DNA of 38,541 nucleotides from positions 1 to 38,541 of the forward strand of contig JADFNO010000015.1 of assembly GCA_022563315.1 (NCBI GenBank). The letters run 5' to 3'. Position numbers and translations under genes: made by a program. The notes under the pieces are model-generated. The model was not told where the DNA came from, ran no database searches, and was given only the letters and a program-made list of their open reading frames with translations. Numbering within the stretch: position 1 is the stretch's first letter; the number at the start of each line of letters is the position of its first letter. The stretch is from Planctomycetota bacterium (GTDB taxonomy: Bacteria; Planctomycetota; Phycisphaerae; Phycisphaerales; SM1A02). Shown in pieces: positions 17,150-34,805 of the stretch.

Positions 17150-17173
17150 GCCGATACACTAGAGCATTGTTGG

Positions 17174-17261
17174 GGACAGGTGTCCGAGCGGCTGAAGGAG
17201 CGGCACTGGAAATGCCGTGTGCGCGTTACGCGTACCGTGGGTTCGAATCCCACCCTGTCCG
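17174..17261 (+). tRNA. tRNA-Ser (anticodon GGA)
   Basis: An 88-nt class II tRNA. The acceptor GGACAGG pairs with CCTGTCC, and the anticodon stem CGGCA/TGCCG encloses CTGGAAA, giving anticodon GGA for TCC/TCT. A long variable arm (TGTGCGCGTTACGCGTACC region) marks it as Ser. The T-arm GTGGG TTCGAAT CCCAC is intact and the discriminator is G. No CCA is encoded. Confidence 0.95.
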
Positions 17262-17273
17262 CTTTTGAGTAGC

Positions 17274-17336
17274 GGTCAGCCGTCAGCGGTCAGCTGTCTG
17301 TCGGAGAAAGCTGATAGCTGATAGCTGATAGCTGAA
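17274..17336. repeat. Short tandem heptads in mirrored arrangement
   Basis: Between the two tRNA genes, about three 7-8 base units around TCAGC (GGTCAGC-CGTCAGC-GGTCAGC, 17274-17294) face four tandem copies of AGCTGAT-type heptads (17309-17336). The halves are roughly inverse complements (TCAGC against GCTGA), so transcripts could form a slipped hairpin. No coding potential. Confidence 0.6.
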
Positions 17337-17350
17337 CGCTTCTTCTCTCA

Positions 17351-17425
17351 CGGGCTGTAGCGCAGCTTGGTTAGCGCGTCTGACTGGGGGTCAGAAGGTC
17401 GGCGGTTCGAATCCGCCCAGCCCGA
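17351..17425 (+). tRNA. tRNA-Pro (anticodon GGG)
   Basis: A 75-nt cloverleaf. The acceptor CGGGCTG pairs with CAGCCCG, the D-arm is GCGC...GCGC, and the anticodon stem TCTGA/TCAGA encloses CTGGGGG, giving anticodon GGG for CCC/CCT. The T-arm is GGCGG TTCGAAT CCGCC and the discriminator is A. CCA is not encoded. It lies 89 bases after tRNA-Ser on the same strand, probably one transcript. Confidence 0.95.
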
Positions 17426-17434
17426 TTGCGGCAC

Positions 17435-17509
17435 TGTAAAGCCGGCGATGGCATCGCCGGGGAACTGCACCAACCGTCCTACCCCGGCGATGCCATCGCC
17501 GGCTTTACA
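17435..17509. repeat. Palindromic repeat family B, inverted pair
   Basis: Two arms of 28 bases (17435-17462 and 17482-17509) form a perfect inverted repeat around a 19-base loop. Each arm contains the near-perfect palindrome CCGGCGATGGCATCGCCGG or its complement and begins or ends in TGTAAAG/CTTTACA. The unit sits ten bases after tRNA-Pro and 21 bases before the transposase start, so it is the upstream flank of that element. Confidence 0.93.
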
Positions 17510-17530
17510 CAGATTGTGTAAAGTCTTCTC

Positions 17531-18058
17531 ATGCCGCGAACACTTGGGTATCACTATGTGAAATCCGGCTACGGCTTGTGGTTGCCCGGTGATGCTCGTG
17601 GTTCTTGGTCGGAGGCGTGGGACGATCAAATCGGTTTTACCGAGCCGCACACGTTGAATCCGGGCGATCCGGTACGTCAGCGCATGGCCCATGAGCGAAT
17701 GAAGCACCAACCGGTCCGACTCGATGCCACAATGATCGCCGCAGTTGTTGGCGAGATCGACCGATGCGCGGCGTCATCCCCATGGCAAATCGCCGCAGCA
17801 AGCATCGAGTCGACGCACATGCACTTGCTTATCACCTACAGCGGCCTTGATATCAAACGCACCGTCAAATGGCTCGCGCAACAGACAACCAAGGCTGTGC
17901 ATCGTCATACCAATCACGTTGGCCCGGTTTGGTGCCAGGGATATTGGTGCAGCTACGTCTTCGATACAGCCTACTGGACGAATCTGGTTCAATACATCCA
18001 GAGGCACAATCTGCGTCACCGCGAATCCGCCCAACCGTATTCAGTCCTCGCCCTGTAA
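17531..18058 (+). CDS. Y1 (HUH) transposase of the IS200/RAYT type, family B
   Basis: 175-residue single-domain transposase of the Y1/HUH superfamily. The metal-binding motif is HMH at residues 96-98 (IESTHMHLLITYSG), and the likely nucleophile is Tyr155 in LVQYIQRHN. The N-terminus has GYGLWLPGDARGSWSEAWDD. Such enzymes nick and join single-stranded DNA at hairpins. No terminal inverted repeats or second ORF are visible. Instead, matching palindromes lie on both sides (17435-17509 and 18054-18079), as expected for a REP-associated single-copy gene. The TAA stop falls within the downstream palindrome copy. The ATG at 17531 is the first start after the upstream palindromes. Domesticated function is inferred, not shown. 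Confidence 0.85.
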   Translation: MPRTLGYHYVKSGYGLWLPGDARGSWSEAWDDQIGFTEPHTLNPGDPVRQRMAHERMKHQPVRLDATMIAAVVGEIDRCAASSPWQIAAASIESTHMHLLITYSGLDIKRTVKWLAQQTTKAVHRHTNHVGPVWCQGYWCSYVFDTAYWTNLVQYIQRHNLRHRESAQPYSVLAL

Positions 18059-18079
18059 CCCCGGCGATGGCATCGCCGG
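18054..18079 (+). repeat. Palindromic repeat family B, downstream copy
   Basis: A 26-base copy matching the left arm at 17435-17460 in 24 positions. It contains CCGGCGATGGCATCGCCGG at 18061-18079. It begins TGTAA, and the TAA (18056-18058) is the stop codon of the transposase. Confidence 0.9.
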
Positions 18080-18195
18080 TCTCTACTCCACCGGCAAACT
18101 CCTAAAGTGCCAGTCTGCCGAACCGATCGGCACGGCGTTTGCGTTCTTCGTTCAGCATGGCATTGGCCACGCTTTACTGAACTCTTCAATCAACT

Positions 18196-18630
18196 GTTAG
18201 GCACACTCCAAGGTACCGGCCATGACTACCCAGCGCGACATCCGCGGATATCTGAAGTCCATCCCGAAATCGACACGCAGAGCCCTTCGCTCTGACGCCA
18301 TTTGCTCGACGTATGGTCCATTCTCCGTGGTAGTCTGCTGGGGTCTCGCCACGGTCGTGGCGATGTTCGGGGCTGCACCTGGTGTCCCCCTCATCGGCAC
18401 GTCCATCGTTTCTGCCCTCTGGGTCCTTCCCGGTATGGCTTTGGGCGTAACCGTCGGCTTCGCGCTCACCCGGTGGTTGGGCAACCGGGCGGTGCGTCAA
18501 TTCCTCACGCACATCTGCGCCAATGGACACCTCCCTTACTGCCCCGCTTGCCGTTACGACCTACGAGCAACACACACGCCCCAGTGCCCGAAGTGTGGCT
18601 GCCCCGTCGTCATACCGGAGGGTGCCTAAC
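18196..18630 (+). other. Possible integron-like cassette boundaries
   Basis: GTTAGGCAC (18196-18204) and its exact inverse GTGCCTAAC (18622-18630) bracket one small gene. These match the integron core consensus GTTRRRY and inverse core RYYYAAC. The gene starts 18 bases after the first site and its TAA stop lies inside the second, both typical of gene cassettes. Against this, no complete attC hairpin ending in another GTTRRRY was found downstream, and there is no integrase in the window. Confidence 0.3.
18222..18629 (+). CDS. Small membrane protein with C-terminal zinc ribbon
   Basis: 135 residues with two hydrophobic helices (about 33-53 and 58-82) and then a C-terminal zinc ribbon CPACRYDL...CPKCGCP (Cys107, 110, 122 and 125). 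The CxxCRYDLR form is familiar from small membrane proteins of planctomycetes. It resembles the ribbon of the gene at 7823-8443, though the order of helices and ribbon differs. No clear Shine-Dalgarno sequence precedes the ATG. It stands alone on the plus strand between the family B transposase and a long stretch without genes, and it is bracketed by integron-like core sequences. No function assigned. Confidence 0.65.
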   Translation: MTTQRDIRGYLKSIPKSTRRALRSDAICSTYGPFSVVVCWGLATVVAMFGAAPGVPLIGTSIVSALWVLPGMALGVTVGFALTRWLGNRAVRQFLTHICANGHLPYCPACRYDLRATHTPQCPKCGCPVVIPEGA

Positions 18631-34066: not shown

Positions 34067-34663
34067 CGGGCGCGATACGATACTCAAATTCCCAACTATC
34101 GACGGGTCTACATCCCAGGAGGCACGTTCTTCTTCACCGTCGTAACGGAAAACCGCGAACCCTTTCTTTGCGACGATCGTGCCCGCGACATCTTGAGAAC
34201 ATCCATCGAAAACTGTCGGCACAAATGGCCGATGACGATCGACGCAATCGTGCTGCTTCCAGATCACCTTCATACGATCTGGACGCTGCCCACCAACGAC
34301 AGTGATTACTCCCGGCGATGGGCATGGATCAAGAAGGAGTTCACCAAGGCATGGCTCGCCGGTCATGGAAAAGAACAGCCAAGGAGTGATTCGCGCATCG
34401 CGAATCGCCGGCGCGGCGTTTGGCAACGTCGTTTTTGGGAGCACGCAATCCGAAACGACGACGATTTGATCAATCATGTCGAATACATTCACTACAACCC
34501 GATCAAGCATGGGTTGGTCAAGTGCCCTCACAACTGGCCGTACTCAAGCTTCCATCGGTACGTGGCTCAAGGCGTGTATCCGCAAGATTGGGCGTGCGCA
34601 TGCAAGTCGGATAAGCCACACGTTGCCAATTACGATGAAATCGCCAAGCAAGCAGGAGAATAA
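34055..34663 (+). CDS. REP-associated tyrosine transposase (RAYT), family A
   Basis: 202-residue Y1/HUH transposase of the REP-associated group. The N-terminus has NYRRVYIPGGTFFFTVVTEN. The HUH motif is HLH at 71-73 (LLPDHLHTIWTLP), FWEHAIRNDDDLINH precedes the conserved HVEYIHYNPIKHGLV (nucleophile Tyr144 or Tyr147), and WPYSSFHRYV closes the domain. Such enzymes bind and cut REP hairpins. No ATG lies before the conserved region; the only usual start is GTG at 34055, inside a family A palindrome, which implies that translation begins in the repeat. Five full family A copies flank it (one before, four after). Intact motifs suggest an active or recently active enzyme. Confidence 0.92.
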   Translation: MRTIRARYDTQIPNYRRVYIPGGTFFFTVVTENREPFLCDDRARDILRTSIENCRHKWPMTIDAIVLLPDHLHTIWTLPTNDSDYSRRWAWIKKEFTKAWLAGHGKEQPRSDSRIANRRRGVWQRRFWEHAIRNDDDLINHVEYIHYNPIKHGLVKCPHNWPYSSFHRYVAQGVYPQDWACACKSDKPHVANYDEIAKQAGE

Positions 34664-34713
34664 TTCGGGTACACGGTTCGGTGAGTTGGCCGACTTTGCC
34701 GGCGAATAAGAAT

Positions 34714-34805
34714 GGTCCGCACAGCGGACCCTACGGAGCCCATCTCTATTCGTAGGGTCCGCTGTGCGGACAATCCGCTCCAACCGTAGGGTCCGCTGTG
34801 CGGAC
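34714..34805. repeat. Palindromic repeat family A, three copies
   Basis: One minus-oriented copy (34714-34735) faces two plus-oriented copies (34751-34771 and 34785-34805). All share the hairpin GGTCCGCTGTGCGGAC. Spacers are 15 and 13 bases. Confidence 0.93.

Follow-up and report, generated by a model that had tools for sequence, protein, structure and literature searches.

RAYTs (TnpA-REP) are bacterial domesticated transposases, and those of E. coli and two other species have been reported to cleave single-stranded REPs, in which GTAG is an important guide-like tag (PMC8266576). Many of the listed genomes with RAYTs contain hundreds of REP copies, and the REPs are located very near or immediately behind a stop codon (PMC2817692), while GTAG REPs often donate the stop codon TAG to flanking ORFs (PMC3733652). 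The insertion sequence IS608 uses AAAG as its left guide (GL) and TTAC as the target (PMC5934647), and class 3 of the TnpA-Y1 transposases, found in Planctomycetes, Acidobacteria and Proteobacteria, is described by the foot CnGA and the tyrosine motif YV..EQ (PMC6006769). These papers are cited for the sections that deal with the features in question; in literature searches, we found no description of a TAA/TAAAG tag whose stop codon is in register with a transposase gene, nor of such REPINs from planctomycetes.

The window, a stretch of 38,541 nucleotides from a Planctomycetota bacterium (contig JADFNO010000015.1), contains a locus that is a REPtron, in which the gene of a RAYT-type transposase is preceded by a REPIN and followed by one REP. 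We consider it very probable that it represents a divergent RAYT (TnpA-REP) lineage, in which the nuclease would recognise a hairpin together with an AAAG tag, the REPs are paired into REPINs and the TAA of the tag serves as the stop codon. The features of the locus and its counterparts are:

17174-17262: tRNA-Ser(GGA)
17351-17425, + strand: tRNA-Pro(GGG), a neighbour, probably incidental
17435-17509, no strand: REPIN (tag-hairpin, 19-nt spacer, inverted hairpin-tag), which folds as a single 28-bp stem
17435-17441, + strand: 5' tag TGTAAAG of the outer upstream REP
17442-17460, + strand: REP hairpin B, outer upstream (8-bp stem, 3-nt loop)
17484-17502, - strand: inverted REP hairpin B, nearest the gene
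17503-17509, - strand: tag of the inverted REP (CTTTACA on the + strand)
17531-18058, + strand: RAYT-like Y1/HUH transposase gene (175 aa; HUH His96/His98, Tyr155)
18054-18060, + strand: variant tag TGTAACC of the downstream REP, including the stop codon TAA (18056-18058)
18061-18079, + strand: downstream REP hairpin B
Same genome (G000), contig C40, 822-1051, and contig C99, 3043-3586: REP-B near tRNA-Pro genes of other isoacceptors, in paralogous segments

The repeat unit comprises the tag and the hairpin (TGTAAAG plus 19 nt), of which the palindrome is only a part. The 19-mer is found at 17442-17460, 17484-17502 and 18061-18079, giving 6 strand matches in the window (up to 3 mismatches) compared to a mean of 0.07 and a maximum of 2 in 100 shuffles. 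The upstream arms (17435-17462 and 17482-17509, 28 nt each) are 100% complementary, and the downstream copy (18054-18079) is 92% complementary across 26 nt (24/26). Folding of the single-stranded DNA gave 8 pairs and a 3-nt loop for every hairpin and one 28-bp stem for the upstream pair. The transposase gene, the perfect upstream pair, the 24/26 downstream copy and the adjacent tRNA genes all lie where the original prediction had placed them. It had also assigned the stop codon to the downstream copy of the palindrome; the codon is indeed within this copy, but in its degenerate tag and not in the palindrome. Beyond the REPtron, an ORF at 18222-18629 encodes hydrophobic segments and a C-terminal CxxC...CxxC zinc-ribbon-like end, and matched no family above the cut-off.

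The window protein was matched by the Pfam Y1_Tnp model (5.6e-8, above the cut-off), while its score for the NCBIfam RAYT model NF047646 was below the cut-off (39.4 bits vs 80). Among 27 members, NF047646 matched 26 at an E-value of 0.01 and Y1_Tnp matched 20 at 1e-3. The AF2 model (pLDDT 81) has a confident core, with residues 22-42 below 50. Foldseek reported 4er8 (the E. coli RAYT-REP complex) as the top match for this model (E-value 3.6e-5), followed by IS608 and ISDra2, and VIA-align 2 gave Z-scores of 12.8 to ISDra2/IS608 and 10.9 to 4er8. Thg1-like enzymes and ribosomal protein S6, with lower Z-scores, were not accepted as relatives. On the basis of the model, the window protein is predicted to assume the HUH nuclease fold. 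H98 and Y155 are invariant and H96 nearly invariant across the 27 aligned members, whose tyrosine motif reads YIxRHN. The dN/dS values of 0.08-0.30 in ten pairs indicate that the protein is under purifying selection. Comparison of the whole-element DNA with phages gave no match, and PHROGs returned a single weak transposase match.

The genome (3.76 Mb in 298 contigs, 96% complete) encodes three close paralogues of the window protein (62-65% identical) and 13 distant Y1 matches. Almost all hairpins flanking the paralogues have a TAAAG-type tag in front of them, and their stems differ (GCGACCGTTGGTCGC, GCCGGCAGTGCCGGC, GCGAGCAGCGGCTCGC). The tag TGTAAAGCC occurs at 31 sites in this genome, 23 of them followed by a stem in which 6 or more of 8 pairs form. 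Scanning species genomes yielded 29 more loci, nearly all in records with titles such as Planctomycetota, Phycisphaerales, Phycisphaeraceae or Pirellulales (one is titled Alphaproteobacteria), and most of these relatives, together with the three paralogues, retain the tag (TG or CA, then TAAAG). Near 33 genes, 98 of the 142 AAAGC sites are followed by a hairpin, AAAGC being the search anchor, so that AAAG is constant there by construction; of 19 permuted 5-mers used as a control, 18 gave 0 to 2 hairpins and the remaining one 11/29. In a set of 40 distinct hairpins, each of the stem pairs 4 to 8 is found as at least two pair types, changed on both sides, which indicates that compensatory substitutions alter the sequence of the hairpin and preserve its shape. 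TAAAG is preceded by TG in one section of the tree and by CA in a different one, and this dinucleotide is identical in the upstream and downstream tags in 22/22 loci; the tree has 2 changes, too few for the agreement to serve as a test of independent co-evolution (L080 and L082 were left out, and manual entries were used for the downstream tags of L001, L069 and L078). The tetranucleotide GT[A/G]G of the canonical RAYTs (groups 2 and 3) is absent from these tags (TGTAAAG/CATAAAG, foot AAAG). The hairpins with this constant 5' tag flank the gene, occur in inverted pairs and have copies elsewhere in the genome. A dinucleotide CT just 3' of the hairpin was considered as a cleavage site; among 86 distinct contexts, 18 have their first CT at the second base and 50 have none within 10 nt, an excess too modest for us to claim one.

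The stop codon TAA lies within the downstream tag in 24 of the 29 genes with an intact end, or 16/20 when counted by 75%-identity clusters. In 20 genes the register is exact, i.e. the TAA of TAAAG is the stop codon and the hairpin follows; this corresponds to 20 of the 25 loci with a tagged hairpin detected near the end, with AAAG beginning at the base that follows the T of the stop codon. Four of the 24 genes were added by eye: L001 (TGTAACC), L002 (tag doubled), L069 (CATAATG) and L078 (TGTAAAGT, imperfect hairpin). L070 and L081, which are cut by a contig end, and L080 and L082, with a broken frame, were dropped before counting, while L054 was kept (internal stop, intact end). Five genes (L064, L068, L072, L076, L077) do not end in the tag. 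In line with the original prediction, gene ends inside repeats recur in the same genome, where 6/13 distant Y1 genes end inside a flanking repeat (L005, L008, L156, L157, L159 and L162; by inspection, with no chance baseline). Other Y1 families of this genome (L005, L006, L007, L008, L156, L158) have hairpins or repeats with TTTAGC-type tags, again with a stop codon in them, and the L005 gene ends within its own hairpin stem. It is somewhat probable that the overlap of stop codon and tag, considered apart from the REPtron, is a side effect of the compaction of the element and has no function of its own: both the location of RAYT REPs close to or just behind stop codons (PMC2817692) and the frequent supply of TAG stops by GTAG REPs (PMC3733652), in the respective sections of these papers, agree with this, as does the persistence of 5/29 genes lacking the overlap, while the exact register in 20/25 loci, among genes with different stems, argues against it.

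Palindrome B is rare in its own genome: a search for the 19-base core, as originally proposed, found the three copies at the gene, one more exact copy (C20) and four within one mismatch (C40, C99, C102, C170), i.e. 8 hairpin places, a low copy number. Among 151 family genomes, 11 have the transposase family (E-value up to 1e-30) and 10 have palindrome B with its tag, at no more than 2 mismatches. Palindrome B occurs in 8/11 genomes with the transposase and 2/140 without it (Fisher's test 1.3e-9, the genomes not being independent); counted by genus, the association is 3/6 vs 2/39 (p = 0.013). In the window's own subclade (loci matching L054-L058 or 82-85% identical to the window protein), it is present in 6/6 genomes, compared to 4/145 others (G003, G010, G037, G066), and hence the view of a second enzyme with its own palindrome, whose copies follow the enzyme's subclade, was borne out. 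The transposase genomes without palindrome B (G008, G030, G031) carry other stems (L072, L069 and L079). An abundance of palindrome B in genomes lacking the transposase, named at the outset as an argument against the pairing, partly occurs: G003, the clearest exception, has 7 places and no close transposase in a genome that is 88% complete.

Many isolated copies in the genus g44 are double-tagged (TGTAAAG-hairpin-CTTTRCA or near), and this form accounts for 21/69 hairpin places over ten genomes and 0/18 in the window's genus. Double-tagged palindromes of 33 nt are seen in G071, G091, G104 and G044 (e.g. L129 1499-1531), and some precede genes encoding secreted FG-GAP-like repeat proteins and lie within ~80 nt of shared flank; 105-nt repeats beside some copies translate (by reading) as FG-GAP-like protein repeats and were taken as unrelated to the REPs. 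Isolated copies in related genera share 50-200 nt of flank with one another, and since 7 of the 10 double-tagged places examined have at least 50 nt of flank in common with another, part of their number comes from the duplication of larger pieces, i.e. some copies of palindrome B are spread by larger duplications and not REP by REP. Within the genus of the window, the longer REPIN at the orthologous locus L056 has spacer sequence in common with C20, C40 and C99, which, judged by this similarity, look like remnants of one kind of element. No clean empty site was seen at the same-genus site L108 or among those matches that were examined in flank searches of four double-tagged copies, which gave orthologous or paralogous flanks. 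At L108 (G037:C310), the tRNA-Pro(GGG) site is followed by a tyrosine-integrase-like gene (by reading) in place of the REPtron.

The second system of the window, near 34 kb, includes a canonical RAYT (197 bits, cut-off 80) and palindromes with the tag CGTAGGG. The original prediction described the two systems as unrelated, which they are not: both enzymes are Y1-type transposases that can be aligned (22% identity over 118 aa, E-value 7e-5), and from this comparison they are distant relatives, members of two lineages with different tags. The systems share a RAYT, flanking palindromes and REPIN-like pairs, but the 34-kb system differs in its canonical RAYT score, its CGTAGGG tag, its stem and a stop codon outside the palindrome. 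The proposal that both use the repeat as the gene end is correct insofar as the 34-kb stop codon (34661-34663) lies within a 78-nt repeat (34658-34735), but it precedes the palindrome (at 34712) by ~50 nt. The common design that was suspected exists as two systems of tagged hairpins, but it is the known REP/RAYT design.

The targeting of REP-B to proline tRNA genes is very improbable. Its copies in the same genome are indeed near tRNA-Pro GGG (window), CGG (C40) and TGG (C99), but C40 and C99 belong to paralogous segments with the tRNA and the flanks in common, C20, C102 and C170 have no tRNA within the stretch examined, and only 4/27 tested loci are near tRNA-Pro (two resemble the C40 place, one is L056, the orthologue of the window locus, and one is L055). 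Numerous independent insertions lie away from tRNA-Pro, and the tRNA neighbourhood is not a general feature; with two of the three tRNA-Pro places paralogous and the other places in the genome without tRNA, the idea was dropped, and the adjacent tRNA genes look incidental. Scarcely credible, and even less probable, is the explanation that the hairpins serve neighbouring genes as transcription terminators or mRNA-stability elements and are associated with the transposase by proximity alone: the stems are GC-rich and located at gene ends, and double-tagged copies run AAAGCC...GGCTTT, but no terminator-like site was predicted in 17150-18250 (0 found, 0.8 expected), the tag stays the same next to different stems and goes with the transposase clade, and the presence of REP-B tracks the enzyme.

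It is also unlikely, albeit less so, that the locus is an insertion sequence of the IS200/IS605 type, with the palindromes as subterminal ends of an element that moves as a whole. AAAG directly 5' of the hairpin is indeed the left guide of IS608 according to the relevant part of PMC5934647, the inverted tag CTTTACA contains TTAC, the left cleavage site of IS608, and the predicted fold is as near to IS608/ISDra2 as to 4er8. Against this, no near-identical whole copies were found in the genome (298 contigs, incomplete), the best paralogues being 62-65% identical and having different stems; the tyrosine motif is YIxRHN and not the Y....Q of classes 1 and 3, as these are described in PMC6006769; the hairpins form symmetric, REPIN-like pairs and stand alone elsewhere; and no tnpB-like ORF was seen beside the gene (ORF list, by eye). 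Class 3 itself resembles our system in its occurrence in Planctomycetes and in the non-GTAG hairpins beside the gene, but differs in its CnGA foot and YV..EQ motif, where ours has AAAG and YIxRHN, the class being taken from its description in PMC6006769. The REPtrons of RAYTs/TnpA-REP, as far as they are covered in the sections used here (PMC2817692, PMC3116915, PMC3686654, PMC3733652, PMC6006769, PMC8266576), share with the window locus the HUH/Y1 enzyme and its fold, the flanking tagged hairpins, the REPIN arrangement, dispersed copies, a REP type tied to the cognate enzyme and purifying selection. The window lineage differs from them in the tag ((TG/CA)TAAAG and not GT[A/G]G), the stop codon TAA taken from the tag, the tyrosine motif (YIxRHN, not YIxxNP), the low copy number (8 places vs hundreds, PMC2817692) and a score under the NCBIfam RAYT cut-off. 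The REP/RAYT design and stop donation by GTAG are thus known, and what differs here is the TAAAG-type tag and the TAA stop that it provides.

For this REPtron, we infer the following scheme of binding, cleavage, guide function and mobility. The gene product would be a single-strand-specific HUH/Tyr nuclease that recognises the hairpin and, as the 5' foot of the hairpin inside the tag (TG or CA)TAAAG, the tetranucleotide AAAG. If it works like RAYTs and IS608, the cleavage site would be chosen by the tag, acting as a guide, and the stem would matter for its shape, leaving its sequence free to drift. In the sequences themselves, the REPs are paired in inverted orientation (REPINs) on the upstream side of the gene and often on the downstream side too, a small number of copies is dispersed elsewhere, and the downstream REP abuts the gene so closely that the TAA of its tag is the stop codon. 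As the paralogous enzymes share the tag and not the stem, the specificity probably resides in tag and shape rather than in the 19-mer; likewise, cleavage by the studied RAYTs of REPs with the guide-like GTAG, together with the AAAG guide of IS608, suggests that the window enzyme binds the hairpin by its shape and AAAG. We speculate that the TTAC included in CTTTACA could be a cleavage target. It is doubtful, though somewhat less so than the insertion-sequence explanation, that this is a separate RAYT lineage whose AAAG guide is like that of IS608, with a guide tag that doubles as the stop codon and, read on the other strand (CTTTAC), holds the TTAC target for that guide; in that case guide and target would both be present in each REPIN, and translation would end exactly on the enzyme's own recognition site, so that expression and the state of the repeat could feed back on each other.

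How RAYTs recognise REPs is a question still being worked on. One genome with four paralogous enzymes that have a common tag and differing stems, plus a canonical GTAG system close by within this 38-kb window, provides a natural test set for whether the tag or the stem sets the specificity, and the AAAG-tagged lineage is a possible link between the guides of the IS608 type and the GTAG REPs.
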